Shown: positions 21,333 through 63,223 of the stretch, one piece after another
Position numbering within the stretch: the stretch's first letter is position 1
Layout of the letters: every line of letters begins with the position of its first letter
Assembly (NCBI GenBank): GCA_947650365.1
Contig: OX393551.1
Coordinates: 8,221,041-8,285,040 of the forward strand
Source of the DNA: Chamaelirium japonicum
Taxonomy: Eukaryota > Streptophyta > Magnoliopsida > Liliales > Melanthiaceae
Length of the DNA: 64,000 bases
Direction: 5' to 3'
Notes under the pieces: generated by a model
What the model was told of the DNA's origin: nothing
Seen by the model: the letters and a program-made list of their open reading frames with translations, nothing else
The model's database searches: none
Translations under genes and position numbers: made by a program

Positions 21333-23444
21333 CTAAAAGAAACGGCGCTGCTGGATCGGTGAGGAGACAGTCATCAGAGGTCCAAACGAGCAGCTGTCCA
21401 GTAGATTTGGATGCAGTGTCGAGATGAACGCAGAGGATTCCGAAGCCCCAATGGGCCGGGAGGCTTGGCTACAGACGAAAGAAAAAAATCAGTGGTAATT
21501 ACCTGTTGGGATCTAAACCGAAGCTCACAGTGTGCCGATGATGGAGATGTGTTCGTATTACCCGTTCACCCTATAGGATGATGGCAGCGAAGGCTCGTGG
21601 TGCATATCGTGGTTCGGAGATATCATGGGCCAAAAGACTATAAAAAAGAAAAGAATGAGCTCAAGGAGATTGGTGAAGCAGTGTGAGTGCAAAGATACAT
21701 ATGCATACATCACAACAATTCACACATAAAGACAAGTCATACGATTCACATGAAATTTTGGGCACCATTCGGACTTTGATTAAGCCAGATTTGGATCTGA
21801 TTTGACCAAATGGGATATGAACTAGGCTGGTCTGATTCAGCCAAACCGGGGGCAAATCGGGGTATAGTTATGGTTCGGGATCTTCAGTTTGGATTGGTTG
21901 AGATCCGAACTGATTCGGTGAACCGGTTTGGATTCAACCGAAACCCCCAAACCATGGCACACAAACACACTACGAATTTTCAGAATGGAAAAACATGTAG
22001 AGATGGAGAGCGGACGAATAACCTGATTGCCTAGAATGGCTTTGATATCCGGAGCAAAACATAGTTTCCTGCACATCAAAAGCCTCCTCAGGAACATACA
22101 CAATTCAACAAACATACCTATACTCAGCCATCACCAACTCACCTCTTTCGGATGCTGTGCAACATGATCAACAGCATCTGCAGGTAATAACATACAGTTA
22201 GAAAGCTACGTTTATATGGGGAACATCAAAGACAGCATCAATGTATTCTTGCCCCCCCCCCCCCCCCCCCCCCCCCCACCTCATTTCATATTGGTCCATC
22301 AGCTTCTTTTTTTTTTTTTGAACAATTTGAACCCTGAACTGTGCTCCGCCTGCATTTAGCCCCCTCCGTCAACTATCCCCAAAAATACCCTTATCATTTT
22401 CCAATAAGACTCAAATGATTTTTGAATTATTTAACTTTTGCTTACTAGGACAGGGTAATTTTCAGAATAAAAGTTGACAAAGGGGGCTAAATTCAGACAA
22501 AGCATAGTTCAAATTGTCCAAAACAAAAAAGTTGAGGGACCAATATGAAATGAGGTGTATAGTACAGGGGAGGTTTTTGTAATTTGCCCTTAGTTATATA
22601 GTTATTCCTACCCTGTGCTTGATAATGAAATTCACACAATCAGTCGTCAAATTTTTTGAATCTAACGGTAAATTACCTGAATTAGGAACACTAGGCTTGA
22701 CTGCCAGTGTTAAACCAAGAAAGGAATCATCTGATTCGCCAAAATCCCACAGATTCAGCTCAAGCTTCGGCTCTGCTCTTGCAAAGGTCAGAGTACCTTA
22801 GTTTAACAAGATAACATATATGGATAATGTATGCAGGTCTACGAAGTAAAAGCCCAACAGCTCACCAATGGGAGTTGTCTTTGAATGGAAGGGATTCTGG
22901 AGAGGGCATGGAACCCATTTTCCCACCTGAACCAAAGTATGCAATTTGGTGAGAACCATCTCCACAAAAGAAATGAAGATTAACTAAGTATACAAATATG
23001 GGATTACATGGAAAAAGGGATGTTGCAGTGACTGTTCCGCGGTGGGCCTCTTTAGTGGGTCCCAGGAGCAAAGTTGCTAATTGTTGATTATCATGACCAA
23101 ATACATAAATTCATAATCAGTAACAATTTCAATCAAGATTAGAGGGAAGTATAGCCTATGTAATAGAGCATTCATGGACGCACCATGATCAAATCAATCG
23201 CCTCCAAGCTAGCATTAGGAATAATCTCCTGTAGATTGGCTGGCGGAATCTTTAAACGAAGAAGAAAACAGTCAATGATAAACTAAACATCATGAGGGAT
23301 CGACAAATTGCAAGTCTTGCAAGTGAAACTCCTACCTGAAAGAACCTGAAATTGACCGAACGTGAAAGCTCCATCCCTTGTGGCCATGTGCTCGTATCTG
23401 GAGACCCCAGAACAGTGCATATTTTGTACATTTGATCTAGTTCA
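21333..23444 (-). CDS. MHK: MHK exons 9-17: kinase C-lobe and plant-specific tail
   Basis: Exon 9 encodes [19 protein letters not shown], exon 10 [20 protein letters not shown], and exon 11 [20 protein letters not shown], ending the kinase fold. Exons 12-17 give a roughly 150-residue tail with [30 protein letters not shown] and the end QQRRFF before TAG 21333-21335. Intron 16 uses donor gtaata at 21561. If it is retained, a TAA follows almost at once and the last 45 codons are lost. Intron 13 contains foldback copy 2. Confidence 0.9.
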
Positions 23445-26400
23445 CTGTACAAAGAAAATGAAAACTAGTCAATAACCTGAACACAAGAAAAGTCTCAAAC
23501 AAGTATCCACATCGGTATTATAGCAAGATATGCAAGGTATTAGACAAAAACAAGTATCAGCACCTCATAATATTCAGCAAATCTAAAGAGTACTACGGAA
23601 TCAGTTTGCATGTGGTTATATAAAAGACATTGTAACAAACAGAACTAAAAACTAATTTTAAATATAGCTCTGGACTTTGTTTCAAAGTAAATTCCAAACA
23701 GGACCGTACATGACCATAACTTTATTTAATAATTAGTTTATTAAATGAATTATCAGCATTATCTGGTGCAGGATGGGATCGTCGCCTTCACTAATAGATA
23801 AACACACAAAGAGGGGGAGGGTTGCTTCACGCACAGACGAAGGGAGGGAGAAACCGAGCATCTCTCACGCGGATGAAATGAAGGGGAGAAGGGGAGGGAT
23901 TCCCATCGCAGAAAACTGAAAACTCTTATTCATTCATCATAATTCGCTCCTTACAGTAAGAGATTGGTCCTCCTTAAATAACCAAAACAAAATAATTATT
24001 GTCCCTTATAATGTGGGCTCACAATCTTTTGAATTTAAAACCAAATCTTACCTAATTAACTTCCTAATCCATCATATCCCCTATTTTAAAATTACCCATA
24101 AATAGCCATCCGAAATTAGGACGGGATCGTCACCTTCGCCAATAGATAAACACACAAAGAGGGGGAGAGAGAGGGTTGCTTCATGCACAGACGAAGGGAG
24201 GGAGAAACCGAGCGTCTCTCACGAGGATGAAATGAGGGGGAGAAGGGGAGGGATTTCCATTGCGGAAAACTGAAAACTCTCATTCATTCATCATAATTCG
24301 CTCCTTACAGTAGGAGATTGGCCCACCTTAAATAACCAAAACAAGATAACTGTTGTCCCTTATAATGTGGGCTCACAATCTTTTGAATTTAAAACCAAAT
24401 CTTACCTAATTAACTTCCTAATCCATCATATCCCCTATTTTAAAATTACCCATAAATAACCATCCGAAATTAGGAAGTAAATAAAGAAAAAAACCTAATT
24501 TAAATTACCCTAATAATTAATCCAAAATTAATTATTTTATTTTGAATTCCCGCTTTGAGATGTGTGCTGGGTTGGCCAGATGGTAGAGGCGATCCACTAG
24601 TGTGGCGAGATGCACGGGTGGTACAGATGCGTCCGCATCATTATCCTTTATAAGTTAGTGTCGGTGGACATTGGGTGGGAGAAGCTATAGCGGGCATTGA
24701 TCGATAAGATATTCGCAGAAAGGAGGAACATTTCCAAACTTGGTGCGTTTCTCAATCCAATCTGGAATGGATCCAAGACAATGAGGTTTCCAAGTCCCGA
24801 AACTTCATCTATAGCATCCGGCCATGGAAGTGATTGTGGGACAACACCAGCTCCTGCATGCCCAAGGCTCCGCCGACACGGACGGTGGGGATGGTGCCGG
24901 TGAGGAAATCGATGCTCAAGTTCAAGCTTCTCAATTTGGGCAGCCCATCCAACTCGGTACTCACAGGTCCGTCAAATAAATCATAGAACAAATGGGCTCC
25001 AGAGCAGTGAAACCCAAGAGGTTGGGTAAAGAACTGGTTAGTGTATTGGAGCTGAGGTTGAGGGACCTCAATCAGGCCAGTCCGGTGCAGTCGGAGGGGA
25101 GGAGGGTGAAGAGGCTTCGAGAGAGGTTAAGGGAGCTAAGGGAGTCAAGGCAGCAGAAGAGGGCAAAGAAGGTGGCGGCGATGAAAGAGTTGTTGGGAGA
25201 CAGGGTCACGTGGTAGGAAGGGCCTAGGGAGAAGGTGACCCCATCCCAGAGATAGGGGTTGGGTCGGTGCTATTTCACCTCCGGTCGAACAACGAGGTTG
25301 GAGGTTTCATGGAGAGAGTCTGCAAAACTTTGGATTGGTTTTGTGGGAGATGAAATACACCCAAGGTTCGAAATTTCCATTTCGGTCAATATTTCGACCT
25401 CCTGGAAAATGGAAATATTTCGTGGAAATATTTCGACAGTGTGGAAATATTGTGATTTGATAGAAATGGTGGAAATATTGATTTTTTAATGGAATTTTTG
25501 AATGAAACTCTGGATAGTCATAAACTAAGTATAGATACACGTTTTAGAACACTCAGATAATATTTATACCCTATCTACGGGTGTAGAGCATCACAAAGCA
25601 TGTATTTAGTATTTGAGTCTGTGAGTCTTGTGCAGTCTTGTTTGGTCCTGTTTTGATCTATGTTTTTAAAATGCTTTTTAATCGTTTTTGTGGAGAAAAA
25701 TATTTCTAAAATAAAGATTAGTTGATTGTTAAATTAATGCTTCAAACGATTTTGAAAATGAACTTAAAACAAGAAAGTTGTGCAAGTTTGAAATCGTGCA
25801 AAAATTATGCTGAAATGCAAAACACTGTTTTTTTACTAAGTCTGAAAAAATGAGTTTTTATAAAGAAAAGTTTTTATACATTCAAAATTTTCTTTGACGG
25901 ACCATAGTTTTCTAGATGTACTTGTAGTTCTACATCTTGTGGAATTTTTTGAGCTAAAAATGAGTTGATTTAACCACTTTTCTCAACATACAAATTTTAT
26001 GAAAAACCGAAAAAACTGTTTTCTCCTACTAAAACTGAAAACCTACTTTTTGATTCACTTGGTTTTTGATTTTTTTGATATTTTTATTGAAATCAAATGG
26101 GGGGGTATTTGCTTATTTACATATAATAACTTAAAGTAAATGGAGAAAATAAAAATTAAGTAAGACGACATTTACTTAAATGTTATTATATGTAAATAAG
26201 CTGCTGAAACCGAAACCCCCAGTCCCCTTTCATAACCAGTCGGTCCCAATATTTCGGTGTTAAAATCCCGAAATTTCCCGAAATGTCTCGAAATTTTCCG
26301 AAATGTCTCGAAATATCCACGAAATATCGCGATATTTCGTGGCAACAAATATATCGCACGAAATATCGCTATATATCGCGATATTATCGTGATTCCTATT

Positions 26401-29400
26401 TCGTTCGATATCACAATACAAATTTCGTGCCGAGGTTTGAGAAAACCGAAATATTTCGCGATATTTCGCGAAATATGTCGAGATTTAGTACCTTGAATAC
26501 ACCACCCGCTGCATGGACAATGGAAGAAAAAGAAGACTGGCACACTTCATTATTCATTTGTTGCTCTCTTGGTCAGAACTAGCAACTTGGGCCTTGTGCA
26601 GTGATCCCGTGATCCTCAGGGTAAATCAATTGTATATAGGACATTTTAAACGCTTAACATAATTCTAAAATATTGTAATATCCTATATGCCATATTATGT
26701 ATTTATTTTCAAAACTAGTCATATGTGGCAGTTTTAAAAGTTAGGTGGTCCCACCCAGTAGTTTTCCCTTATATAAATATATGATTAAGTACTCACCGTC
26801 ACATTTGTTCAGAGCCATGATGTAGGCTTCATAATTATTGTATGTGGTTGGATTGTAACCATGTGGAGAAACATGAATTATACAAGCTAGTGATGTATGA
26901 TCAGTGGGCTTCATACTTGTTCGTGTTCCAATTATTACCACCACCATATGCATCGAACCTATCCATCTTTGCATTTCACATTTAGGATCAAAATAATATT
27001 GACAGTGCATGTTATAAGATCTGTATAGGCCTCATTAAAGGATTATATATTTTGTACACATGAATAATTTCATGCAAACATGCATTGATACGAAGGTACA
27101 CAAGCAAAACATTCATACAACAAAAGAGAGGAATGATGAAGGCATATGAAAAATGAAGCCCATTAGATCCCAAGGCTCATGTGATAATTCATATAGCCCT
27201 AAACTGTCCATTGAACATCTATTGAATAGTGAAGCAAATTAAGTTTCCCTCTTAGAGTAGAGAAAATTAAAGCATAAACATTTTCTAAGGATCTGAACTT
27301 ACTGAACAAGTGATCAAATTATAAATGCGAAGGCAACCACTAGAAAAGTAAAAAATTCATTTAACAAGTGCAACTATTAAACAACTTGCATTAGAATCAA
27401 AATTTAAGCGACATATTTTCTTGTCATCAAGACTTCAAAACATGGCACCTATTTGGAACTTATGTCCAAAGAATTCACTATGTACGCTTTGTATCAAAAT
27501 AAGCCATTCACATTTACTCAATAGTCCAATAAAACTAACATGGTAATACCAGAAAATAACAAAAGCTCAGATGCCTCGTCTTGAACGAGAGGCATGTACC
27601 ATGATCAGCTGAGCTTTTTCTTCATTTTCATAATACATCTATACAAACATGTCTTGCTCATTAAGGGGGATACGACAGTCTCAGAACTGTTGAGGTGTAA
27701 CTCTCTACTATTAAGCAAACCTATTAGCGAGATTAATCAAAAGTCACAAGACTAAAAAATGAAAGTACTAGAAAGAATAGTATATTCACAAGTAAAGAGG
27801 TAGAGAATCAAGATAACTAATGCTAATGCATACCCCTAGAGAAATCAGTCAATAAAATATGAAGACACGTAATGAGTAAATCATAATACAATGTGAGGAT
27901 GCTGTGGTAATTTTATAAAGATTTTCTAATTGTTCACATGTCCAAGATGACAATTTATCAAAGATATAAGAACTTCATATTTTCTTCTTCAATGGTTGTG
28001 AGATTTCAATTTTTACCTTTCACCAGGAAAAAGTGGAGATTGTGTAAAAAGCTCCGCTAAAATTGCACCAACAGCCCACATGTCTGTAAAACTTTTAGCT
28101 ATTAGCGAACACATCATGGAAATAAATCCAAATTATTCTATGTTAAATTTCTGGATAATATAAAAGCATCTCTCTGGCTGTATTGCTAGTGACTGAAACA
28201 TGTAAACCTTGAGAGAGATAAATTTACAGTATGCATTTTCAGTAAGTACTCTCTCTAAATTTTCATGACATTTGAGTATTTGACACAAGAAGATTGGCTA
28301 TTCGGGCATGGCTCTACCCGACCCAGACCCTTATTAAGTTCAGTGACATTAAAAGAATTTATATTCAGTTAAAACCAGACAAGCCGGGTCAATCCATTCA
28401 ACTTTCATAGGATCTATTTATCTTACTTTTTAAACTTTATTCGCCACATAATTCTCATCATGTATTCTTTGTACTCTTATGTTCACTTCCAATTTGATTC
28501 ATCATGTTCAAGCTACCCTGATAAATATTAGTGGTACTAACCGTTTGATTTAGGAGTGGCCTGCATCAAAGTAGTAAATATTAGTAGACACTACATACTT
28601 CTATGATCAAGGTTAGTAGTGCTTTTGAATCAGAGTGAAGATTATAGACCACTTCTCGACAAATTTGTTGTTTTAATCTAAAGAATGACCACTCGTCTTT
28701 CAAAAGTTTTTCAATTCAAATTTTCTTTGGACTGCTTGAACCAAGTGGGAGATTGTAGGAGTTCTAACCCAGCGTGCAATTGATTAGGTCAGTCGTACTC
28801 GCTTCAAACTCAATGGTTCAATGCAATCCACTTCGGTTTTCAAAATTTTCATTAAATATTTGGATTGGGTTTGTTGTCACAGGAGATAATAAGGATAAGG
28901 ATCCCACTAAGGAATTGTAATTGACATAGAATTCTAAGTGACCTTATCCAGTTTAAAACGATTAGGGATGGTGACTGTCAGATCATTGGTGAGCTTTCTT
29001 AGCCCTTGTAATGCTCAAGATGGGTAGAGTTGATAGGCATCTGGTTGCTGCCTATAAATACAAGCAGAACACTCCCTCCTCTTTCTCACACTTTTGGAGC
29101 CCATCGAATCGGCATGAGAAGATAAAACTTCCTCAATCAACATCTCAGATGAGGTAGGAGGTACGTCTGTAGTCATTCCGATTTAAGCAATATACATGCA
29201 AATCTAATATACCTAACTAGATTCGATCCTAAAGGTTTGTGGTTTTCTTCATAAACCTAATGATGGCTTAAATATTTAGCATTATACTGCCCAAACCTAC
29301 CAAAATAATATTTCTGAGTTTTAAAAGTGATATTCATGGAGAACATTGTAATGTACAAAACATACTAATGAAATGACAAATTATTATAAGCACCAATTTA

Positions 29401-47400: not shown

Positions 47401-47877
47401 AAAAATGAGAGCAAAAAAAAAATCGTTATTACGAAATCTTGAACTAGGGTTTCTAAAAACCTAGTCGATTCAAGTAGATGGGTAGTCAAAGATCATCTAG
47501 ATGCATGAAAGATGATCCAAGAATCAAATATCATATGATTCAAAAAGGTAAAGGAGGAGATCAAAGATCATTCTTGCAAAACCTTGAACTAGGGTTTCGT
47601 TTTTTTTAAAAGGGGCCCACAAAGATCATTGCAAAAGGAGAAACGAAGATCAGAGAGAAAGCAAAGCAAAGGAAAAGATCAAGATTATGATTACCTTGGA
47701 TGATTTGGTCGTCTACTTGCCGAAGGAATCAAGTTTGCGAGATGGTTTTTGCAAAATACCTTGAAGTAGGGTTTTTAGACCTAGCTTCAAGAAATACCGA
47801 AAAATAAGTTAGAAAAGGAGAGGAGACCCCTTTTTATAGACAAAGGGGGGTCAAAGGACGAGCTGTACCGCCGTCCT

Positions 47878-47908
<31 letters not shown>

Positions 47909-53900: not shown

Positions 53901-56900
53901 AAACCCCCAGTCTCCTTTTATAACCAGTCAGTCCCAATATTTCGGTGCCAAAATCCCGAAATTTCCCGAAATATCTCGAAATTTCCCGAAATATCTCGAA
54001 ATTTCCACGAAATATCGCGATATTTCGTGCCGGCAAATATATCGTGCGAAATATCGCGATATATCGCGATATTATCGTGATTTCTATTTCGTTTGATATC
54101 GCAGTAGACATTTCGTGTCGAGGTCTGGGAAAACCGAAATATTTCGCGATATTTCGAGATTTTGTACCTTGCTCTTGGCCTTAATGTTGTATTTGGTTAT
54201 AGAGAACATTTAACACAAAAGGAAAGAATGGGAGAGATTTATTTCCCATGGTTTGGTTTTGCAAAAAAAAAAGAAATAAAAGGAAAAAAATGGGAGATCA
54301 TATTAGGCATTACTTTCTTCCATATTCTAAAATATCTATTATCATAAGTGGTGTGAAATATATTAGACAGAAGAATAGATAGATTCTAATTTTCCAAGTA
54401 CACGATGCTTCATAATTTTACGAGTCCATCACAAACACCACCTGTTCCAATGTCATTGTTGTCACTTGCCACCGCAGCTATAGATCATTGTCATTGTCAA
54501 TATGACCACTTCAACCACCAGTCTTTGTCACCATCTCTTCTCCAACATGCCCCATCTTCATTACATCCACCATCAACAACACTAACACAATTCTATATTA
54601 TTTCCTCTCATTAAGCAACAACCAAATATTCTACATTTTGGTTTTTGTTTCTCTAGATATTTTCTCCATGAAGATTTTCTCTTTCTCCTATTTGAGCAAC
54701 CTAGCTTGAAACTTCCTCCATAGGTCATTTTCAACATTCAACCTAATCTCATTTCATTCATCAACATGGTATTGATCATTAACATGCGTATAATTGTATG
54801 TATGAATATGGTAACCTTCCTTCACTTGAGTTCTTTGGTAGTGCGAGTTTACTTAATGAAATATCCTTTACTTTCTAATGACTTGATTAGTTTCAAAAGA
54901 AATTTACTAAGAGTTCAAAACTTACATAATATGTTCGCACATGGTACAACATTGCCAACATGTTCATCTTAATGGACATTAAGTGTTTGTTTCATTAATT
55001 TGTAAGATGTGGTACCTTTAAGAGTATGTAAGGTGTGTGGTCCTATTTAGAAGCATATGTGCAGTGTTATACTTCGATAGCTAATGACCATGGGGCATCA
55101 GAAAAAAGAAAAAAAACTTAAGATTTTTGTATTAAAACAAATGGCAAATTACACTTTGGTCCCGTATAGTTTGGGTGTTGTAACACTCATGCCTCTATAG
55201 TTTTTTTTGTTACACCAACACCCCCAATAGTTTTTAAAACCACCAATCGTTAGCTTGCTTCTGTTAGTCTGGACAAAAATCAAAGGAAATCGACCATGTG
55301 CCTGTCACGTGATAGGGAAAGGAATAAAAGTTGGCAAAAATGCCCTTTAGTGTTCCTTTTAACCCTTGGTCAAGTTGTCCTTCTGATCGGTATGGTATAA
55401 ACGGAGGTATTGCTATTGTTAAGCAGTGGGCGTTGTGATGAGGGTAGTGTTGTGGGTTGAAAGTGGGGAGTTGAAGAGAATGGTGCAGGTGGTGAGTTTG
55501 ATGATGATGTTGTGCGAATGAAGGTGGTGGTGCGAAGTGGTGGCTCAGGTGGTTTGTGCCAAAGTGGGGAGGTTGTGAAGTGGAGATGGTGGTGATGTTG
55601 CGAGTGAGAAGCAAGTGGAGAGGGTGATGATTAGTTTTGAAGGAGATGGGGTGCAGAGGTGATTGAAGATGAGGTGATGATGGTGTTAGGGGTGTTGTGA
55701 TGATGGGTTGATAGTGTTGGTTGAGTGAAGATGGGAGGTTGAAGGTGTGGGGTGATGGTAGGATGTGGAGGTGGTGACAATGGTGGTGGTGCGAAGGTGG
55801 TTTGGTGGGTTGGTGAGGTTGATTTGGTTAGTACATGTGGTGTCCGGAGTGAGAGAAGGTGGTGGGTGATAGGCTAGGAAGCACCGACACTTGTTTGAAG
55901 GCCCCGTGTCCGTGTCCGACACGTGTCGGACACGGACACGTTCCGGACACGTTCGGACACGTGTCGGGTCGAGAAAAAAAAAAAAAACCACTGCTGCGGG
56001 CTCGGACACGTTCTGGACACGTGCCGGACACGTTCCGGCCCGGAACTGACCGACCCGACCCGACCCGACTGTGATTTAAAAGACCCCGACGAGCGATAGG
56101 TTTTCTCCGCTCTGCTGAGGCTTCGGGCGATCGGCTGCTTAGGGTTCGGGGCGATCGGCTGTGACGACGGCCTCCGGCGCTCTTCCGACGCTCCTCCGGT
56201 GAGTCCTCCCTCCTCTCAGTCCCCTCCTCCTCTCAGTCCCCTCCTCCTCTCAGTCCCTCCTCTCGATCCTCCTCCGGTGAGTCCTCCTCTCAGTCCCCTC
56301 CTCCCTCAGTCCCCTCCCTCAGTCCCCTCCTCTCAGTCCTCCTCTCAGTCCCCTCCCTCAGTCCCCTCCTCTCAGTCCTCCTCTCAATCCCCTCCCTCAG
56401 TCCTCTCAGTCCCCTCCCTCAGTTGATGGATGATGATCTATGAGTGTTCTATTTGTTTTGTTTTGTGTTTTGAAAAGCTGAAACCCTGAAGCTATGCACT
56501 TGAATCCTTGATGATGTTATTGTTGTTCACTTGTTTGTTCCTTGTTGGAGACTTTTAAATTAACGTTTAGCTTTATTTTGGATTATGAATCATAATATTA
56601 GACATATTAGTTTCATTATATTATATATATATAATATTAATTCAGCGTGTCCGTGTCCTAATTTTTTTAAAAATGACGTGTCTGCGTGTCTGTGTCGTGT
56701 CGTGTCCGTGTCCCGTGTCCATGTCCGTGCTTCTTAGGTGATAGGTGATGCATGTGGTGAGGTGGTTGTTGTGAAGGTGGAGATGAGGATGTTGGTGAGG
56801 TGGTTGCTGTGAAGGTGGAGATGAGGATGGTAGGTTGGTGAGGCCGTGAGGGTGATTTGGTTGGCCGAGGTGGTGGCCAACTAGGAAGCACAGATACTCA

Positions 56901-59900
56901 TACGGACCCCGAGTATCCGTATCCGACACGAACATGGCCCAGATACAACCGGATACGACATGAATACGAATGGATACAACTTGGGTTTAAATTGACTGCC
57001 GGGTCGGGCTGGATTTATTAAAATCCAAATCAAATACAATTAAACCCAACTACCCTTGTCGCGTAGGTTTTAAAGAGTAATAATGGGACCGAAGTCACCG
57101 AACTCTTGGGGAGGAAACCCTAGAGAGATGGCGGGCAACCAATGCTCTCTCTCCAATCCGTCTCTCCACGGAATCTCAAGCCGTTGTTTCCCCGCCACGG
57201 GTCACTTTCCAATGGACGCCATCCCGCGCCGATGTCTTCCTCGAGCCTAAGGTGTCATCTCGAGCCGTCGTCTTCCCCGAGCCACAGTTGGGTCTCACGC
57301 CAGTGCCGAAATTGGACGCTCGACCGCCACCGGTTAGAGAAAATTGGGCTTTTGTACTAATTTTATGGTTCAAAGGTATGGGACCAAAACCCCCTCTTGA
57401 TTAAATGTTTCGACTACAAATTTCTTCGCATTTTTTTGAATCGATTTCAGAATCACGTAGCAAAACCCATAGATTTTATATAGATCGAGGATTGCAGAGG
57501 ACTCCTCCAATTGCGGAGTCTATTGGAGAAGTAGAGTTCAAATCTCATATAATCGGTCGTCAGGCGCCCCGTCTGAGCTTGACTTACATCATAGCCGCAC
57601 CATAGTAGGCTACCTAACAAGTGAATCGCACTCCAGAAGACCGCACAATAACCATGCGGTTGTGATGCCCACCAGGGCGATGCAGGGCAGACCGACTGAA
57701 AGAGATTTGAACACCAACCAGTAGATCCACATAAGTGTACCAAGGTGGCCTTGACATCATATTGGCACCCATGTTTTCCTTCTCGTATGGAGGTTATAAA
57801 TAAATGATGACTTCTTCGAGATCAGGAGGCCATTATTATTATTATTATTATTATATATTAAAAAATTACCGTATCTGTATCCTAGTTTTTCAAGATTTGT
57901 CGTGTCCCGTATCCGTATCTGTGTCCGAGTCCGTGCTTCATAGGTGACCAGAGTGGGATAAAGTGGTGGAGATGGTGGGTGATAAGTGATGCATGTGGTG
58001 AGGTAGTTGTTGTGAAGGTGGAAGTGAGGAGGACGGTGTGGTGATGATGGGTTGGTGATGGTAGTTTGGTTGACCGAGTGGGGGGGCAAAAGTGAGAGAC
58101 AGTGATGAAGGTGGTGGGTGATGCATGTGGAGAGGTGGATGCTGTGAAGGTAGAGGTGAGGTGGTGGTGGGTTGGTGAGGGTGGTTTGGTTGGCCAAGGT
58201 GGTGGCCATAGTGGGAGAAGGTGAGGAGGTGGTGGGTCATAGATGATGCATATGGTGAGCTAGTTGTTGTGAACATGGTTGTTAGTATCTTACGATACAC
58301 GATACAATATGTACAATACGACATGATAGAGGAGAAAAACGATACGATATGGGTGTGTGTAACGTCTTTCACCGTATCAATCATATGATACATGACACAA
58401 TATATACGATACATGATACGATATGTACGATACAGTAAAAGTGAGGGCTTTGGTTTGTTTTGAAACTTCTAAAATAATTTTTGACTAATTTTTTTCTCTT
58501 AAGTTCCGAAAGAAAGATACACTTCTGTTTGAGTGGAACACCCTTACCCATGAATTTTACAATTAAACTGCATATCTTCTTGATGAGAACAAGTAAACTA
58601 ATATAAACACTACTATGGTGCTTCGAAAACTAATATAAACCTTGAAGGTATAAATGGCATGGTAAAGTGCCCAATAAAAAAGGCCTGTACAACCAAACAT
58701 CTAATATAAAATAGGGACAATAAGACATATTAGATTATTTCAAGTCTACGGACAATAAAAACATGGATGAGAATATTTAAAGACTAGGGACAATAAAAAC
58801 ATAGATGACATTATTTCAAGACATAATTAACCATTGTGAGCCGGATCAAGTTTCTAAACTGCAGTTTTCATAAGCTTACAGAGATGTATTCACCATTGTT
58901 AACCTACAATATTAAACTAAGTACAAAAATAAAAAATTCAGATGATGATGGGATTCCCGAAGGCTTCATCTTGTAAATTGTGTATGCCCAGAAAAAGATC
59001 CGGGTCGTCTTTATTGCGAGCACACGAAGATTACAGATGCCGGGACTCGGGGGCTCGGGGGTGGCGAGTCCGGGTGCGGCGAATATTTAATCAAGAGATT
59101 GTGGGAGAGATCCTCTAGAGGGTCCCTTTGATCCGCGTCTCCACGTGGTATTCGTGCGAGAGCTCTGAAGGGGTTGCCCAGGACAAAGGTCTTTACAGGG
59201 TGAGGGTTTCTTGAGAGGCTAAGGAATATCGGTCATTGATTTTGTCCCGTCCGTGCTTCGTGCCTTCTCGGCTAGGGAGGTTTTGGGCTTCGTTCCTCGG
59301 TCTACGTGTCTTCCTCGATCCTTGCTAGACCTCGGCGTCCTTGATCGTCGGTTCGCGGCGTCGATCGTGCTTTTGGCATTGGTTTTGGCTTTGGCTTTCG
59401 GCTTTGGAGTTGCTTTGGCGTGGCTCTGGCTTTTGCTTTGCTTTGGCGCTTGCGCTTGAACGTAGGCGGGTAGAGGCTTGCGATGCTTTAGTTCTTCCGG
59501 ACTTCGCGTCATATCGGCTAGAACGTGCGGTGCTTTGCTCGTGACCGTCGTAGTTGCTTGGCTTTGGCACGGGCTTTACCGGTGCGTTTGCTTTGGCTTC
59601 TTGCGTTGGCTTTGGCTTTAGCTTTGACTCAATCTTCTTCTCGAACGGCGATGGCTACTTCTTCAAGGCTTCTTTATTCTTCTGGCTTCCTCGACAGTTG
59701 TGGCGTCGGCTTGGTTTCTCTTCTTCTCTGAGCTTCTTTGGCATGATCGGAGTTGAAGGTTTCTTTTGAAGACAGCGGGGGTAGCACCAATCTTCGTGCG
59801 ACGGTTGTAGCGTCGGCTTTTGTTGATGAAGACGGCGCGGGTAGCACCGATCTCCGTGCGACGGTTGTAGCGTCGGCTTTTGTTGATGAAGACGGCAGGG

Positions 59901-61614
59901 GTAGCACCGGCTTCAGGCCTTCTTCTCCAAGCTTTCTTCTTCATGCAAGAATTCGACGCCTTTGTTGAAGACGACGGGTGTTGTCGGCTTCGATCTTCTT
60001 CTCCGGCCTTTGTTTATGGCGTCTTCGGAGTTGATGAAGATCGTTGGAGAAGTCGGGGTGACGACGACTCCGGGTCTTCTTCTCCGGGCTTTCTTCTTCG
60101 TGCGAGGAGTCGAAGGTTGATCTTCGAGTGCAAGGTCTTCACGTTGATGAGGACTTGATGGGCTAAGTGTTCCCGTAGGACGCGCTTGTCGTGCCTCGTA
60201 AAGCCTTCGGTCTTCAAGCGTTGGAGCTCCTTTTTGCTGAGCCCTTTCGTCTTCAGCTTTCGATTCTTGATGCCTTCCCCCACCCCGTCTATTTATAGGC
60301 GACGGGGGGAGGTTGGGATAGATATGGCTGAAATCTTTTTGTTTCATCTAATATCTCCCCCCATAACCATCAAGATGTGGTTACCTTATTTGGGGGAACC
60401 AACCTTGATTTGTTTCCCTATTTTGTGGGGATGGTTATGAGCATGACGTGACTTGATCTTTGAAGATTGAGTTGTCATTTTTGTACTTTCGGATTGCATG
60501 GAGACACGACGTCATCTTGTCCGTCGGTTCGAGGGATCGTCGCGGATCTACGGTTGTGTAGACGTCCCACGCCACCTCCCCCCGCATCGAGGCGGTTTGG
60601 ATTTTTTTTTTTTTTTTATTCTTCCCCTCATGACCGGCCACACCTCCCCATGGGGAGGGGCACGGTTTTCAAGAAGGGGGGGCCGATGGGCCCCTTTTTT
60701 GAGTTCGGGTAGCGGGTCCGGTGGGACCCGTTTTGCTTTGAGTCTGGTCCGTTTTATTTATGGGCCGTTGCGCGAGCTGAGTTCGCATGCGGGCCGAGTT
60801 CGTAGGTGGGCCGTTGTGTGCGGGCCAGGTTTCGCATGCGAGCCATTGTGTGTGGGCCGGGTTTCACATGCGGGCCGTTGTGTGTGGGCCATGTTTGCAT
60901 GTGGGCCGTTGTGTGCGGGCCAATTTCATGTGTGCGAGTCGGGTTCGACCCGTGGGCTAATTTCGGTGCCCACAAATTGTAATAACTTCTAGGTAACATT
61001 TGATATCTTGATTGCTGAGTGTCTTCAATGAGCGCATCTAATTCATTATCATTGATAGGTGTCCTAATGTTTTAATAGTTAGTTTCTTCATTTTTACCGG
61101 CTTAAGCATCACTGACTAGCTTCACTTTTTATATATGCTAATATGTTCTGTGTTGATGTTTCAATTGATTCATAAATTGTCTACTTGATCCATATGCTTA
61201 TTCAGAATTCAATATTGTGATGAGTTTATTAAGAACTTGAATTTCTAAGACCATCTAAGATCTATCATGGTCATGCACATCTTTCTTGTACACAACACGG
61301 TACATGCAATCCTTCCAAAATACATCAACAGCAAAAAATAATGCACATCATTCTTCACTAAAAATAAAACGATGTACCACCTGATGCAACAAAACAAAAG
61401 AGCAAGGTTCTTTAGTCCCAAACCCAAGTATCAAGTTCAGTACTTACTATTTCATTTATTTTCAGATCAAGTGCCATATAGACACTTCCGCAAGTTCCAT
61501 CTCCGATCTCCTTCATGATTCTATATCTACAAATTGGCAGTGTAAGAACAATTAGCCCTTCCTAACAACATCATTAGATATGAGAAAATAACCCTGATTA
61601 ACCCACCTTTCCAT
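21333..61614 (-). CDS. MHK: MHK-type serine/threonine kinase, 17 coding exons over 40 kb
   Basis: This matches plant MHK, a kinase of the RCK group related to animal MAK/ICK/MOK. All 17 coding exons join in phase across GT-AG introns to 433 codons with no stop: 61607-61614, 61448-61526, 51820-51888, 51564-51653, 29946-30084, 29744-29846, 29580-29632, 28017-28083, 23336-23444, 23184-23249, 23008-23076, 22866-22926, 22677-22772, 22143-22177, 22023-22068, 21562-21637, 21333-21468. Kinase marks are [28 protein letters not shown], activation-loop TDY and WYRAPEV. The tail [10 protein letters not shown] and [11 protein letters not shown] is characteristic of plant MHK. Large introns are 2 (9.6 kb), 4 (21.5 kb), 7 (1.5 kb) and 8 (4.6 kb), all transposon-bearing; the others are 74-500 bp. 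Intactness of all exons and sites argues that the gene is functional. Confidence 0.93.
22252..22594. mobile_element. Foldback element, family 1, copy 2, in MHK intron 13
   Basis: The right arm (gaggtgtatagtacagggga, ggtttttgtaatttgccct) is intact, and inverted it matches the left arm of the copy at 3861. The left arm keeps cacctcatttcatattggtc, but its outer part is replaced by 26 C (22252-22277). The interior phrase gaacaatttgaaccctgaac matches copy 1. Confidence 0.75.
23771..24474. repeat. Tandem duplication, unit about 348 bp, in MHK intron 8
   Basis: The unit runs from gggatcgtcgccttcactaa to atccgaaattagg and is repeated at once with small changes, including an added gagaga. Each unit contains a minus-strand TATA-like ggttatttaagg and a GA-rich patch. 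It could be a duplicated piece of an old LTR, but TG...CA ends are not evident. Confidence 0.8.
24680..25215 (-). pseudogene. Decayed leucine-rich-repeat gene fragment in MHK intron 8
   Basis: The minus strand shows successive LRR-like pieces in different frames: [20 protein letters not shown], then [19 protein letters not shown], then [19 protein letters not shown] followed by DFLTGTIP and [13 protein letters not shown] [13 protein letters not shown], then [12 protein letters not shown]. Stops and frame changes lie between them. The pattern (SLNLS.N.L...LP) is that of plant extracellular LRRs as in receptor-like kinases. No kinase part is seen. It is a dead fragment captured or left in the intron. 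Confidence 0.65.
25362..26495. mobile_element. CAAGGT element, copy 1 (hAT-like, 1134 bp)
   Basis: The element begins CAAGGTTCGAAATTTCC and ends CTAAATCTCG-type sequence with ACCTTG. It is flanked by perfect 8-bp duplications AATACACC at 25354-25361 and 26496-26503. Both ends are packed with gaaatattTcg and cgatatttcg words that can pair across the element. No transposase frame is present. A second copy is at 53052-54171. Its 8-bp target duplication and short inverted ends suggest hAT. It sits in MHK intron 8. Confidence 0.85.
26504..28016. other. MHK intron 8, remaining part
   Basis: AT-rich intron sequence with no supported ORF or clear transposon end. It runs up to donor gtaaaaa of exon 8. 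Confidence 0.5.
28017..30084 (-). CDS. MHK: MHK exons 5-8: catalytic and activation loops
   Basis: Exon 5 (29946-30084) carries [18 protein letters not shown] and HRDLKP. Exon 6 (29744-29846) carries ENLLVTND and [20 protein letters not shown]. Exon 7 (29580-29632) carries [18 protein letters not shown]. Exon 8 (28017-28083) carries [20 protein letters not shown]. The TDY activation motif is the dual-phosphorylation type seen in the RCK group. Introns 5 and 6 are about 100 bp; intron 7 is 1.5 kb and holds a copia-like fragment. Confidence 0.92.
28744..29230 (+). mobile_element. Copia-like 3' fragment: polypurine tract and LTR
   Basis: The phrase ccaagtgggagat followed by TGTAGGAG is the usual polypurine tract and LTR start of plant Ty1/copia elements. 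About 290 bp further is ctgcctataaatacaagcag, a TATA box, with CT-rich sequence after it. The LTR end was not fixed and no matching 5' LTR or pol remains were seen, so this is a truncated remnant, within MHK intron 7. Confidence 0.5.
30085..31616. other. MHK intron 4, 3' part
   Basis: AT-rich intron sequence without recognisable genes. Short frames here are not protein-like. It ends at the target duplication of the CTAGGAAGC element. Confidence 0.45.
31625..32452. mobile_element. CTAGGAAGC element, copy 1 (828 bp, hAT-like)
   Basis: The ends are CTAGGAAGCACGGATACG and, inverted, CTAGGAAGCTCGAACATG. They are flanked by 8-bp duplications TTTAACCC (31617-31624) and TTTGACCC (32453-32460), one mismatch. 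The outer parts are AT-rich with ggatacg words. The middle, 31880-32170, is GC-rich and gene-like (ccatgaatgaggaagcccta, tctgccaccggtgccttcc) and may be captured cargo. There is a small direct repeat, catctgacatagcttccgcc, inside it. Confidence 0.8.
32461..33513. other. MHK intron 4 sequence left of the LTR element
   Basis: No convincing gene. A short frame near 32403-32675 overlaps the end of the CTAGGAAGC element and has no recognised motif. Confidence 0.4.
33519..35590 (+). repeat. 5' LTR (2072 bp) with hairpin array
   Basis: It starts TGTAGACATTG and ends GCTCATACA. The U3 part, 33580-34620, holds about 19 copies of a short palindrome, TTTCCCTGATGACCAGGGAA A (8-bp stem, 5-nt loop), spaced by two alternating linkers (aaatttggctaagtctggaa and cttccttacactttatt). 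The TATA box TATAAAAG is at 35122-35129. The 35200-35350 part has repeated gaagatcgaag words. It differs from the 3' LTR at 33574, 34289, 34396 and 35397 by my reading. Confidence 0.95.
35122..35129 (+). promoter_or_regulatory. TATA box of the retrotransposon promoter
   Basis: TATAAAAG in the context cgaccc-ttataaaagg-aggg. It is about 470 bp before the end of the LTR, leaving a long R-U5 leader. The identical site in the 3' LTR is at 49639-49646 and points out of the element into MHK intron 4, antisense to MHK. Confidence 0.75.
35598..35616 (+). other. Primer binding site
   Basis: TGGCACGCCCGGTGGGACC begins seven bases after the 5' LTR and opens with TGG, the complement of a tRNA CCA end. 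I did not assign the primer tRNA. Confidence 0.75.
35705..43429 (+). CDS. Tat-like gag-pol polyprotein, intact, 2574 aa
   Basis: A single uninterrupted frame. I start it at ATG 35705 because the longer frame from 35564 begins inside the 5' LTR and crosses the primer site. Numbering from that Met: retrotransposon gag domain about 245-395; a CCHC-like box C512, H515, H520, C525 (C-X2-H-X4-H-X4-C); aspartic protease [12 protein letters not shown] at about 858-869 (DGGS 860-863); a long linker; RT from about 1580 with [16 protein letters not shown] and catalytic YVDD 1700-1703; RNase H; a second, archaeal-like RNase H starting MFFDGAA (D1996) with NKAEYQAL and GDSKL; integrase with an HHCC-like finger and D2294, D2354, E2390 (35 residues between the last two). 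No chromodomain was seen. All key residues are present, so it may be active. Confidence 0.95.
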   Translation: MVGIGDAMVVPVTMPFVESNTVQQGNQENVTTNANVSASEEAPALRVYTRRKKTTSVLPEVETEGDILCTKELGVRDEVIFNPDGHVDAVVHHDYVSEDDVETLEARQEVRPNSTNSTMTKLEEEVRQMSQLMAQMVQTMAEKDRQINSLLKKMDTKEEALVPATTKALPTTTRTLMPPMITSPEIGAIMPTSSPMTVEQLQSMVASMIQARGDGFSKSTVGYTKPYSQRIQDLRFPAGYNPPKFQQFEGKGNPKQHIAHFIETCNNAGTYDDEMVKQFVRSIKGTAFEWYVDLTPGSIDSWEQLEREFLTRFYSTRRVVSMVELTAVKQRKDEKVIDYIDRWRNLALNSRDRLSESSAIEMCIQGMHWGLLYILQGIKPSSFEELATRAHDMELSLATHGDSKPRDFSKSKADGKEKMSAPKAKQTNVVNIASSSKPLKMKEKPDNTKPTTESSQQRPPRMTLEELQAKKYPFPDSEVSAMFDQLLEEKMIEIPLSKRPEEANRVDDPLYCKYHRVVSHPIEKCFVFKEKIMSLARQGKIELPSDEIVATNMTSIVFGSLPPVQIPAARKRLVFKIKTSALLSKQHSSVRRHMHVTQVASLGAPELRIQMRKNQIKSRESLPTKEAPLPPKENDYSLEKENSEQKDGWTLVVRNKRTPRAPLRKVSPIIYDKSKGKREKTYVKKSLKKKGQKKSMPKVVTVNDEEILHQAVRRPLTLRDFIPEDFFENDLSSSSTCYTAEVHEKESNEELTLQSPEMSDNIPPVEPIEGNLAATSDEAMLHLPLIEAFHLSEDARHAMAAALTDPESYQVKTNEEKSVQCDMTISFSDEDLQLGARLHNRPLYVSGYINEKPVTRILIDGGSAVNIMPSQTMKDLGIKSDQLSRSKLVIQGFNQGAQSAVGIIRLKLSIGELDTMTLFHVIDCQTSYRLLLGRPWLHMNKIMPSTLHQCFKYHQGGIEKCVLADDRPFNEAEAYLADAKFYHSKGSVIKETSPNKATNSLQETEAKEVTPSVRVSPNPPTQRHTMFGDCECDECLEEALELEYEDDEDRRRKNKKSSQQSLKQRYENGDPEVGLLGQPSGKFDFYVLYPKKSNQQAVSVQMKSIKGKQKVNKYPTKMAESAPVLSFVPQRGRKIGQPPFTPMHTKTSTSFTDANLVTLKEDLVLPLHSLTSATNSSKGNSTFKPEGTWGSEASSLLSKAGFTPKDVERLGTLPPRTAPYGLTKTQERLFLAGENIPQTRPGIGAKQIPIVLKTSTKETMSANFIEAQDEEDYTKALYDADDDTVEKKYLGNTDEDFQTLSKSAKRRRRRAKKKEILMAQYEMPDVHHQLKPNQTSVFERIKKPRIRSEIVKNNHPRQSVFDRLELGFAKPSRPPRFAHSRHAKISYGHSGSFQRHSLTWHRVPPLQDAPLTISIDATSDSTTNSAYLNASSSSGSKKNIVVSVNHISTEYIDCSSSSSDSDLADAPPVLEEGGQSTVDDLKEINLGTEEEPRPTFVSSLLTTNEEVEYVKLLQEYKDVFAWSYKEMPGLDPKIAVHQLAVKRGANPIKQGQRRYRPELIPQIEAEVNKLIEAGFIREVKYPTWISSVVPVKKKNGQIRVCVDFRDLNNACPKDDFPLPITELMVDATMGYEALSFMDGASGYNQIRMAPKDEELTAFRTPKGIFCYKVMPFGLKNAGATYQRAMQRIFDDILHQNVECYVDDLVVKSKQRSSHLDDLRAIFDRLRRYQLRMNPLKCAFGVTSGKFLGFIVRHRGIEIDQSKIDAILNMPDPKSLHDLRSLQGHLAYIRRFIANLFGRCHPFHQLMKKDAIFKWDEACQKAFQDIKDYLLKPPVLTAPIPGISLILYISAQEHSLGALLAQENEFGKEVACYYLSRTLVGAELQYAPIEKICLALIFATKKLRHYMLAHTIKLVSKADPLKYIMSRPVLSGRLAKWALLLSEFDIIFTPQRAVKGQALADFLAHHSIPADWELTEELPDEEVFFVNIIPSWEMFFDGAAKRQAAGAGIVFVSPNSETLPYSFSLAEPCSNNKAEYQALIIGLELARDMKLQGLRIYGDSKLIIHQVLGDYEVNKEDLKFYHEYALTLFNSIEAASIQHVPRSSNQQADALANLAASLAIQDLEQLNIPVCRRWILTLEDQFNQAIGQKNEDHSYVIEEQDWRQPLIDYLESGKLPKEVKHRTEIRRRAPKFLHFNGELYRRSYDGTLMRCLTGEDIKFALQESHSGICGTHQSGPKLHFRIKRMGYYWPTMVKDCLNFSKKCHACQIHGDYIRQPPEPLHPTVASWPFDSWGLDIVGPLPKSSKQHLYILAATDYFSKWAEAVPLREVNRNSVMNFIQNDIIFRYGVPRCIVTDNGKQFKNATMDNFCAKYKIKQRCSTMYNAPANGLAEAFNKTLCKLLEKVVSKSKRDWHERMHEALWAYRTSFRTPTQATPYSLVYGVEAILPLELQIPSLRIAIQEGLTTDENAQLRLVELEALDEKRLEAQQRLECYQARISRAFNKKVKPRSFQEGDLVLAVRRPIILSHRAGKKFDAKWDGPHVVREVYTNGAYLLMTPEGGQLGPINGKFLKRYYA
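43520..43610 (+). other. Conserved-looking non-coding motif after pol
   Basis: Just past the pol stop lies gaactacgtgcgacttgatc then gggtacgtaggcagcctgag and a small palindrome cctgaggaaacccctcagg. The paired ctacgtgcg / gtacgtaggcagcc words are known to recur after pol in Tat-lineage elements. Their role is unknown; a 3' processing or RNA-structure role is only a guess. Confidence 0.5.
43723..47017 (-). CDS. Antisense spliced gene in the retrotransposon: plant-mobile-domain-like protein
   Basis: Three exons on minus join in phase: 46433-47017, 44776-46357 and 43723-44699. Introns are 75 bp (gtatatt...ttccag) and 76 bp (gtatgag...tatag), giving about 1047 aa. The first half resembles the plant mobile domain (aminotransferase-like/MAIN family): [42 protein letters not shown], and RGIFAKNL. 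The last third is rich in Glu, Lys, Ala and Leu and looks coiled-coil. Removing the first intron restores the expected IYQISG joint. Antisense genes in this position are known in Tat elements; PMD genes occur both in hosts and in transposons. It shares transcription direction with the MHK host gene. Function unknown. Confidence 0.85.
47020..47838 (-). promoter_or_regulatory. Promoter and 5'UTR intron of the antisense gene
   Basis: A minus-strand TATA box TATAAAAA lies at 47831-47838. About 140 bp downstream is a donor (ccaag/gtaatc, 47694). An acceptor gtgtgtag ends at 47020, three bases before the ATG, so a 675-bp 5'UTR intron is likely. The region holds two copies of a block with a poly-A run and ggccggccctggtcaaacct repeats (about 47180-47305 and 47850-47975). 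These may be regulatory or simply duplicated. Confidence 0.6.
48021..48035 (+). other. Polypurine tract before the 3' LTR
   Basis: cttgagggggcaatt directly precedes the TG of the 3' LTR. The purine core is gaggggg. The last five bases, CAATT, happen to equal the target duplication outside the element. Confidence 0.7.
48036..50107 (+). repeat. 3' LTR (2072 bp) with hairpin array
   Basis: Same length and layout as the 5' LTR, offset by 14,517 bp. The hairpin array covers about 48097-49137 and the TATA box is at 49639-49646. All four differences I found are G/A transitions: G at 48091, 48806 and 48913, and A at 49914 here. Confidence 0.95.
50113..51563. other. MHK intron 4, 5' part
   Basis: Intron sequence. 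50330-50480 holds a ggttcggccgaatggg-type dispersed repeat like those near 7600 and 21800. Nothing else is recognisable. Confidence 0.45.
51564..51888 (-). CDS. MHK: MHK exons 3-4: catalytic lysine and helix C
   Basis: Exon 3 (51820-51888) encodes [16 protein letters not shown] and NLREVK. Exon 4 (51564-51653) encodes [14 protein letters not shown], then [12 protein letters not shown]. Both are complete multiples of three, separated by a 166-bp intron. Exon 4 is followed by the 21.5-kb intron that holds the LTR retrotransposon. Confidence 0.92.
51889..53043. other. MHK intron 2, segment next to exon 3
   Basis: AT-rich intron sequence. 52720-52910 contains gatatcgatat/ctgtatcgattgcggtct direct repeats of an old dispersed element. 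No gene. Confidence 0.4.
53052..54171. mobile_element. CAAGGT element, copy 2 (hAT-like, 1120 bp)
   Basis: Closely similar to copy 1 along its whole length. It is flanked by perfect 8-bp duplications CTCTTGGC at 53044-53051 and 54172-54179. It has the same orientation as copy 1 and lies in MHK intron 2. The end block again consists of cgaaatatcgcgatatttcg-type palindromes. No ORF of its own. Confidence 0.88.
54180..55385. other. MHK intron 2, non-coding stretch
   Basis: No gene is supported. At 55145-55215 there is a left end of foldback family 3 (aaattacactttggtcccgt) without a clear partner. Confidence 0.4.
55874..56737. mobile_element. CTAGGAAGC element, copy 2 (864 bp)
   Basis: The ends are CTAGGAAGCACCGACAC and, inverted, CTAAGAAGCACGGACATG. 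They are flanked by perfect 8-bp duplications GTGATAGG at 55866-55873 and 56738-56745. The outer parts are made of gtgtccgtgtcc-type words. The interior includes a GC-rich gene-like start (gcttcgggcgatcggctgct) and a ctcctctcagtcccctcctc minisatellite at about 56195-56425. Confidence 0.88.
56881..57943. mobile_element. CTAGGAAGC element, copy 3 (1063 bp)
   Basis: The ends are CTAGGAAGCACAGATACTC and, inverted, CTATGAAGCACGGACTCG. The flanks gtggccaa and gtgaccag agree at 6 of 8 bases, a plausible decayed duplication. The cargo differs from the other copies: 57080-57370 looks like a gene 5' end (gagatggcgggcaaccaatg), and 57400-57790 read on minus includes a hydrophobic run ([20 protein letters not shown]) broken by stops. 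I do not recognise either source gene. Confidence 0.7.
57831..57853. repeat. (ATT)n microsatellite
   Basis: About seven to eight ATT units, inside copy 3 of the CTAGGAAGC family. Confidence 0.9.
58263..58980. other. MHK intron 2, non-coding stretch
   Basis: 58270-58435 contains many cgatacgatatg/tacgatacatgatac words, probably the remnant of another element. The rest is AT-rich intron ending at the solo-LTR target duplication. Confidence 0.4.
58981..60974 (-). mobile_element. Solo LTR, 1994 bp, in MHK intron 2
   Basis: It starts TGTATGCCCAG, ends GGTGCCCACA, and is flanked by perfect 5-bp duplications AATTG (58976-58980, 60975-60979). It is GC-rich, unlike the intron around it. On minus a strong TATA box, cctataaatag, lies near 60290, followed by a leader rich in gaag words, so minus orientation is likely, although not proven. 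It is not related to the 33.5-kb LTR by my reading. The many long frames here (Arg/Lys-rich on minus, ctttggcttt-derived on plus) are repeat artefacts. No internal region remains, as expected after LTR-LTR recombination. Confidence 0.85.
59768..59912. repeat. 60-bp tandem repeat inside the solo LTR, 2.4 copies
   Basis: Units start at 59768, 59828 and 59888 with gaagac and contain ggtagcaccgatctccgtgc and gacggttgtagcgtcggctt. The third is partial. Confidence 0.9.
61448..61614 (-). CDS. MHK: MHK exons 1-2: start codon and glycine loop
   Basis: Exon 1 contributes only ATGGAAAG (61607-61614) before an 80-bp intron. Exon 2 (61448-61526) completes [20 protein letters not shown] and ends in phase 0 at a gtaagta donor. 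Such a tiny first coding exon is easily missed by gene finders. The glycine-rich ATP loop is encoded here. Confidence 0.9.
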
Positions 61615-63223
61615 TGTGAGAATTGAACCAGAATACAGCTACAGCTGTTTCACTGGACTTCCAAAGAACTCCGAGTACGAGCGACTATACCGGCTATGCA
61701 GTGTCTTATAGTAGTTTGCACATAGCTAGAGGATGAGAAGAAACTTGTGTCTTTAAACGAAGTCCTGCTCTCATGATATGAGTGATTAAACATTACCCAA
61801 AAAATGATCGACATGCTTAATGCAGCCTCTATAAGCTGTCACCCACAAGAATCATCTGCGTGCAATGAGCCGAATCAGGATCACTTCTGGCATCATGGCA
61901 GCCAGATAGAAAGTTTATTTGACTTAAAGAGCGCCCTGGAAACAATTGAAACTTCGCTCCATTTACCAACGCATATTTCCCAGCCGTTATAAACAGGGGA
62001 ACTGAGCTGGAAATAAAATGACAAAGAAAACAAACATAATTTATATTTCCAAGAAAATGGAAATCTATGAAATAAGGTCATTCCATTAGCAGTGCTGATA
62101 TATATTTGATGAATTTTGCTAAAATTAAATTGTGGAAAAGAATATGCCAAATGGGAAAGCAAAAGTTCATTTTACACATTGTAGTCAAGGAGTCATCTAG
62201 GAAATTTTGGGCCAACAGCCCTGGTAGTAGGTCAGGAGGGTCGAACACATACATACATATAATATAATATATATTACATATATACATATGGATATTATTA
62301 CTCTTATCACCTAGGCATCGCCTAGCTACGTTGACTACTTTGGTTTCCATCATAAAGATAAAATCAACAAAAGTGTTTACTCATACAACCATCAAAAAAA
62401 TCATCATCCATTTCTAACAGATATATACAGATCTTACACGATGGACAGATAGGTCAAAATATCAGTATTCTTCCATAAAATCCAATAACCTTCAAAATTG
62501 AACAAATTTTTTCATGCTAATTCAACTAGCAGCAATTAGTTCACTTCCCGATGTACAAGTTTTGTCATTACAAGCGGGAAGCTTCAGATCTTTGTAGACC
62601 GCTCACATTCTACCTCCTCAAGTTTAGACAACCTAATAGGCCAATCTAGCTAATCTAATTGAATACAGTCCTAAATTAAAATGTAAACCGTTACTTCTGC
62701 ACCTATTTGTTAACAAAGATCACATCTTTAAATACTAACCAACATTCTTCACACTTTATCAAAGATATACAATACTCCATATAGGAGATTGTAATCAATT
62801 ATATTGCGAGTGCACTGGGTGAAAACTTTCTCAGATTTCATTCAAAAAAACCAAAGCAAGAGGCGTGAGTACGGTAACCTCTCCATCCAGACTTGTTCAG
62901 TCTCATAGTTTGTCAGAAACAAGCTCAAAAATCTAGAGCCATTAGTGACACCTTGCAGGAAACCATATAGCGAATGAATCGGAAAGAAAAATAAATAATA
63001 AGGAACGGGTAAGGATCCGTTTCAATCAACTGCATCTATAGGCAGATAAAGATAACTTTCGGGTGGTTGAATCTTTAACAGCCTGGCTGCAACTTAGCCA
63101 TTTTCCAACCTGGTGGGCAGACATTTAGATCATTTTTAATCATCACAAACAAATTGTAAAATACCCACCCAAAAAAAATCCCAATTTTAATAAAATCATT
63201 GCAATCATTCAATCGAAACTTGG
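61615..63223 (-). other. Probable 5'UTR intron of MHK
   Basis: No coding sequence is recognised. If the donor at 63615 is used, this is the right part of a roughly 1.9-kb 5'UTR intron that ends a short way before ATG 61614. 62200-62290 contains a catacatacatataatat AT-rich patch. Confidence 0.4.

Follow-up and report, generated by a model that had tools for sequence, protein, structure and literature searches.

A 40-kb MHK-type kinase gene model with transposon-rich introns in Chamaelirium japonicum

Organization of the kinase locus

The window analysed here, a 64,000-nucleotide stretch of the Chamaelirium japonicum genome (C3:8221041-8285040; assembly of 1,518,659,071 bases in 3253 contigs), carries on its minus strand a protein kinase locus running from 61614 to 21333. 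The locus comprises 17 coding exons with borders read by script; all 16 introns are GT-AG, their phases are consistent and the joined frame contains no internal stop. With the exon 13 acceptor placed before 22775 the coding length is 1305 nt (434 amino acids), and an alternative tandem acceptor 3 nt further on gives 1302 nt (433 amino acids). These borders and phases bear out the preliminary description, which had proposed 17 exons over about 40 kb and 433 codons without a stop.

A tblastn search of the window with a reference sequence of Arabidopsis MHK (AtMHK) gave colinear matches from 61528 to 22684 at E ≤ 1.1e-6 (best 1.4e-35) and a weak match reaching 21348 (E 0.73); the remaining weak matches, at E ≥ 0.43, are dispersed. 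Every exon listed below was delimited by border reading, and exons 2-11 and 13 also have tblastn matches, as do, weakly, exons 16 and 17.

61607-61614, minus: exon 1 (8 nt), N-terminal MERY as in the AtMHK reference
61448-61526, minus: exon 2, glycine loop GDGTCGSVY
51820-51888, minus: exon 3, lysine of VAVKK
51564-51653, minus: exon 4
29946-30084, minus: exon 5, HRDLKP
29744-29846, minus: exon 6, DFG and TDY loop
29580-29632, minus: exon 7, APE
28017-28083, minus: exon 8, DMWAVG
23336-23444, minus: exon 9
23184-23249, minus: exon 10
23008-23076, minus: exon 11, end of the kinase domain
22866-22926, minus: exon 12
22677-22775 (start possibly 22772), minus: exon 13, tail motif LELNLWDF...
22143-22177, minus: exon 14
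22023-22068, minus: exon 15
21562-21637, minus: exon 16
21333-21468, minus: exon 17 and stop codon

Ten of the 16 introns measure 74-166 nt. The long ones are introns 2 (9,559 nt), 4 (21,479 nt), 7 (1,496 nt), 8 (4,572 nt), 13 (499 nt) and 15 (385 nt).

Elsewhere in the window, an uninterrupted 415-codon stop-to-stop frame on the plus strand (2142-3389) has two GTP cyclohydrolase I domain matches, and part of an RNA-binding protein, an RRM fragment, is found at 13024-13701 on the minus strand. A 164-bp stretch (8191-8354) is repeated 5.4 kb away at 13568-13728 with 77% identity, and two tandem duplications, both near-perfect, occur at 391-959 (281 bp) and 13706-13842 (66 bp). A 125-codon open frame on the plus strand (63194-63571) has a protein-like composition and matched nothing in Pfam or PDB.

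Identity of the kinase

The spliced product matches the Pfam Pkinase profile (PF00069) over positions 1-263 of 263 at E 6.1e-74, a complete kinase domain, and the catalytic motifs can be read in the translation. Aligned with a single MHK reference, AtMHK, the product is 59% identical over 430 amino acids. Its kinase domain aligns without gaps, and its C-terminal tail follows AtMHK, aligned up to residue 430 with tail motifs in common. Of the reference sequences compared across the kinase domain, AtMHK is the closest at 70.8% identity, followed by an Arabidopsis MAK-like kinase (61.1%), human MAK (60.2%) and CDK2 (39.9%).

CDKs rank first among the best 60 of 2717 PDB matches (top E 2.9e-65). 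Kinases of the MAK/MHK (RCK) type are set apart from CDKs by a TxY activation loop and the lack of a PSTAIRE helix. The product has the TxY loop, aligned with THEVVTLWYRAPE of a CDK3 chain, and in place of the helix it has NLREV, aligned with STAIREI of that chain. A CDK identity was rejected because both motifs differ and the CDK2 reference is about 40% identical.

Sequence comparison thus places the product among the CMGC kinases of MAK/MHK (RCK) type, closest to Arabidopsis MHK (At4g13020), which we take to be the male germ cell-associated kinase homologue. The family name derives from the identities to these reference sequences, among which the higher kinase-domain identity and the MHK-type tail favour the MHK branch over the MAK-like paralogues. 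The Arabidopsis gene is compact, whereas the introns here reach 21.5 kb. Literature searches returned no paper on the male germ cell-associated kinase MHK or At4g13020 in Arabidopsis, and none on CMGC/RCK/MHK kinases containing the word MHK.

Copy number in the genome

Searching the genome with the kinase protein gave 102 matches (97 of 581 candidates scored), eight of them in the window: seven at 81-96% identity, and one at 63% that runs into an intron. None of the remaining 94 exceeds 56% identity. The MHK-type gene is probably single-copy in the 1.52-Gb assembly; an incomplete second copy may have escaped the search, since 97 of the 581 candidates were scored and the window's own exons 1-4 are absent among the matches listed.

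One relic of the locus is present at C2:97796802-97797124. It corresponds to 30038-30375, covering 47 nt of exon 5 together with 291 nt of intron 4, at 72.6% identity, and no further kinase exons were found in the surrounding 40 kb. It may have arisen as a duplicate that has since decayed, or by capture of a fragment.

Insertions in the introns

Nine insertions, differing in age, were delimited in introns 2, 4, 8 and 13. The largest, a retrotransposon in intron 4, is described in the following section; the others are as follows.

58981-60974: solo LTR (TG...CA), intron 2, target-site duplication (TSD) AATTG
56881-57943: CTAGGAAGC element, intron 2, flanks GTGGCCAA/GTGACCAG (6 of 8 agree), ends read from sequence
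55874-56737: CTAGGAAGC element, intron 2, TSD GTGATAGG (8 of 8), ends read from sequence
53052-54171: CAAGGT (hAT-like) element, intron 2, TSD CTCTTGGC
31625-32452: CTAGGAAGC element, intron 4, 8-bp flanks TTTAACCC/TTTGACCC (7 of 8 agree)
25362-26495: CAAGGT (hAT-like) element, intron 8, TSD AATACACC
23764-24640: probable solo LTR, intron 8, TSD TTATC, internal 354-bp duplication
22277-22590: foldback/MITE, intron 13, many copies about 82-83% identical

Elements of hAT type are characterized by an 8-bp TSD and short terminal inverted repeats. The 8-bp duplications AATACACC and CTCTTGGC are exact on both sides of the two CAAGGT elements, and each element end starts CAAGGTWC, features that mark these as hAT-like non-autonomous elements. 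For the intron 8 copy, 3296 candidates were found in the genome, and the 40 scored (its own included) are 98-100% identical and exactly its length. The five longest relatives of the CTAGGAAGC element in intron 4 are 73-75% identical.

Long relatives of the intron 2 solo LTR are 83-90% identical (40 of 12134 candidates scored) and include three same-strand pairs 14-16 kb apart, as expected of the LTRs of whole elements. Relatives of the probable solo LTR in intron 8 are 80-89% identical over 24118-24641 (40 of 3742 scored) and include four pairs on the same strand at spacings of 1.8-2.6 kb; its duplication TTATC was the sole one from a small scan and could be chance. No TSD was found for the intron 13 foldback. 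A relative of it lies at 3860-4265 and matches on both strands for about 300 bp with 72-76% identity. A scan for terminal inverted repeats and TSDs with 9-base exact ends did not recover the hAT-like or CTAGGAAGC elements; the pairs it returned were all chance-like.

Eight of the insertions sum to 23,923 bp; adding the second solo LTR (882 bp) and 33 bp for a longer end of the foldback gives about 24.8 kb, or about 64% of the 38,977 intronic bases. The inventory of the preliminary description (two CAAGGT elements, three CTAGGAAGC elements, a foldback, a solo LTR and an LTR element) is confirmed by TSDs, genome copies or both, and its view that transposons account for most of the gene's length is supported. 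An insertion in intron 7 was not confirmed, the matches there being low-copy and 68-72% identical, around 28529-28968. The proposed copia fragment was likewise not confirmed: Pfam detected no retrotransposon domain in 16 uninterrupted frames from intronic sequence other than the retrotransposon (two of these frames belong to a CTAGGAAGC element), the sub-threshold matches being Zn_ribbon_NrdR (0.0032), PIN7 (0.043) and LRR (0.027). A decayed copia relic may lie in shorter or stop-broken intronic frames.

Within 24646-26775 of intron 8, the segment 24809-25126 (minus strand, the orientation of the kinase) appears to be a fragment of a leucine-rich-repeat (LRR) receptor gene. Against PDB it matches LRR receptor kinases with a best E of 1.8e-19, a value inflated by repeats, and its Pfam LRR match is below threshold. 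DNA relatives are found at C8:35040581-35041172 (70%) and, in pieces, at C12:11091869-11092427 (79-82%), and 26523-26751 matches C12:11087671-11087889 at 75%. Because both parts have relatives on C12, the piece may have been captured from that region and since split by the CAAGGT element.

The intron 4 retrotransposon

Intron 4 contains a long LTR element inserted antisense to the kinase gene.

33519-50107, plus: Tat-type Ty3/gypsy LTR retrotransposon, 16,589 bp
33514-33518 and 50108-50112: target-site duplication CAATT
33519-35590, plus: 5' LTR, 2072 bp
35564-43429, plus: gag-pol open frame, Pfam domains from 35708 on, in three pieces
44669-47038, minus (kinase strand): extra ORF antisense to the element, 789 amino acids, plant mobile domain (PF10536, E 1.1e-12)
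48036-50107, plus: 3' LTR, 2072 bp

The LTRs start with TGTAG and finish with ATACA, and the 5-bp duplication abuts these TG...CA ends. The gag-pol frame encodes gag, a protease (below the Pfam cutoff), reverse transcriptase, RNase H, a second RNase H (RVT_3) and integrase, the Pfam order being RVT_1, RT_RNaseH, RVT_3, H2C2 and rve. A second antisense ORF (43723-44745, minus, the kinase strand; 340 amino acids) has no Pfam match at E 0.01. CAATT also occurs at 48031-48035, directly before the 3' LTR; this identity with the TSD is probably chance. The TSD at 33514-33518 is in addition the reverse complement of AATTG at 58976-58980, the TSD of the intron 2 solo LTR.

In the angiosperm Tat lineages Ogre and Retand, a second, archaeal-type RNase H is reported between RNase H and integrase, TSDs of the Tat clade are given as 4-6 bp, and a plant mobile domain is noted in 57% of Ogre elements (PMC6317226), while Retand elements are described as typically carrying antisense ORFs 3' of pol (PMC11963269). 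The intron 4 element resembles both lineages in its second RNase H between RNase H and integrase, its great length and its extra ORF. It has the plant mobile domain reported for Ogre, but encodes it antisense and 3' of pol, the arrangement typical of Retand. Its domain order, TSD and LTR ends identify it as a Tat-type Ty3/gypsy element, for which Ogre and Retand are both possible assignments.

The two LTRs differ at 4 of 2072 positions, all transitions (95% range of the count, 1.1-10.2). Rates of 1.3e-8 to 6.5e-9 substitutions per site per year date the insertion to about 75-150 thousand years ago, and rates of 3e-9 to 1.5e-9 to 0.3-0.65 million years ago. The family comprises 837 candidates in the genome; the 40 scored are all 98-100% identical over 941 bases.

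The LTRs are rich in AATAAA on the strand of the gene. Intron 4 has 39 AATAAA hexamers on the kinase strand and 11 on the other, and each LTR holds 18 in kinase sense (36 in both) and none in element sense. When the mononucleotides of the 5' LTR were shuffled 1000 times, the mean count was 1.6 and the highest 6, a comparison in which the observed copies are not independent because the hexamer lies within tandem repeats of the LTR. In 12 fetched loci of the 40 matching LTR places, the two window LTRs have 18 copies and the other ten 9-16, with none on the element strand in 12 of 12. As the ten other loci share it, the asymmetry is a property of the family and was not selected at the kinase gene.

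Constraint on the reading frame

If the kinase frame had been neutral since the intron 4 insertion, about 0.06 nonsense and about 0.06 splice-dinucleotide changes would be expected, about 0.12 in total. The probability of no disabling point change is then 0.89 (0.74-0.97 over the 95% range); frameshifting indels would lower this and the following probabilities somewhat. With 4 differences in 2072 LTR positions and so few changes expected, the open frame carries no evidential weight for the period after the insertion and is no evidence that the gene survived it. This is the new point of the analysis: dating by the intron 4 LTRs leaves the frame uninformative about later survival. The preliminary description's claim of one intact kinase gene therefore holds for a single model with one open frame and not for a working gene, since an unused frame would not yet have had time to decay after the largest insertion.

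The older insertions allow a longer view. The 3 mismatches in 24 flank bases of the CTAGGAAGC elements correspond to about 8 disabling changes under neutrality, with a probability of none of 2e-4, an estimate from just 24 bases whose lower 95% bound gives 0.19. Given that about 8 were expected and none is seen in the frame, the kinase gene was probably under selection after the CTAGGAAGC insertions.

Interpretation of the locus

From the open frame, the splice and element borders, the TSDs and the small LTR divergence, we consider it likely that the locus is an apparently single-copy MHK gene of 17 coding exons, with about nine mobile elements in its introns, that is transcribed whole and spliced. 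The entire 40-kb unit would be transcribed, including the antisense Tat element, the largest and among the youngest of the nine insertions, and the long introns, presumably heterochromatic, would be spliced out through masking of the IBM2/EDM2 type, as in Arabidopsis.

Alternatively, the retrotransposon may recently have silenced or truncated the gene, with transcripts of exons 1-4 alone ending in the LTR arrays, so that the locus would be a very young pseudogene. The LTR divergence allows too little time for decay, and the strand-biased AATAAA count of 18 to 0 per LTR, far above the shuffled sequences even if its copies are not independent, is compatible with such an end. Polyadenylation at an intronic LTR is moreover known for RPP7/COPIA-R7 (PMC7529245). 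However, intronic transposons are reported to be masked, with expression in large plant genomes often comparable with and without them (PMC4417168). The terminator of the element itself, being antisense to the gene, should sit on the opposite strand, and among the 97 of 581 scored candidates there is no second kinase copy to cover a loss. We regard the young-pseudogene reading as unlikely.

Plant poly(A) signals are loose, and the LTR hexamers may act as such. In a reading that we hold to be decidedly improbable, the recent Tat insertion made the apparently sole MHK gene a conditional allele: the AATAAA arrays would form a poly(A) trap that is overridden solely while intron 4 is heterochromatic, tying kinase output to silencing of the element. 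In Arabidopsis RPP7/COPIA-R7, the 5' LTR was shown experimentally to act as a proximal poly(A) site, and EDM2 suppresses its use (PMC7529245). That gene and the IBM1 introns covered by the same source resemble the kinase locus in having an LTR element or heterochromatin within an intron, but LTR polyadenylation at RPP7 was established by experiment whereas the kinase locus is known from its anatomy alone. A search for LTR insertion combined with antisense orientation and premature polyadenylation returned no paper.

Two introns are very long, at 21.5 and 9.6 kb, as would be expected if the locus were made up of at least two gene fragments, or of exon-like segments lined up by chance, and not one transcription unit. 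We find this hardly credible. The exons are colinear in tblastn and in phase, the frame is consistent, the Pkinase match is full and the kinase domain is gap-free against the AtMHK reference; intron 4, once the element and one TSD copy are removed, shrinks to 4,885 bp. An assembly error at the retrotransposon, conceivable since so abundant a family (837 candidates) permits misjoins, is the most remote of these readings, as the TSD sits exactly at the TG...CA ends, as genuine integration yields, the 941-bp piece of the 5' LTR has its best other match in the element's own 3' LTR (40 scored), and no element-free copy of the flanks was found (40 of 205 and 40 of 103 candidates scored).

A gene transcribed whole across transposon-filled introns, the reading we prefer, has parallels in grapevine, for which 2,697 introns of 3-100 kb are reported, more than 80% repetitive and enriched in recent LTR insertions (PMC3058033). 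The kinase introns resemble these in being mostly repetitive, expanded by transposons and host to recent LTR insertions. In grapevine, however, copia exceeds gypsy 6.5-fold and ESTs show transcription, whereas the kinase locus has a Tat/gypsy element and is known from sequence alone. The same source counts 188 expressed clusters that each matched more than one annotated gene; as the grapevine annotation thus split expressed genes at large introns, it is plausible that an automatic annotation would split or mask the kinase gene, as the preliminary description anticipated.

Transposon-swollen introns are ordinary for large plant genomes, and this locus adds a further, unusually well-delimited case. 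It also illustrates that an open frame is weak functional evidence where the largest disruption has been in place for less time than a frame takes to decay. An apparently single-copy kinase gene that combines one very young, large insert with older ones would make the tolerance of intronic transposons testable.
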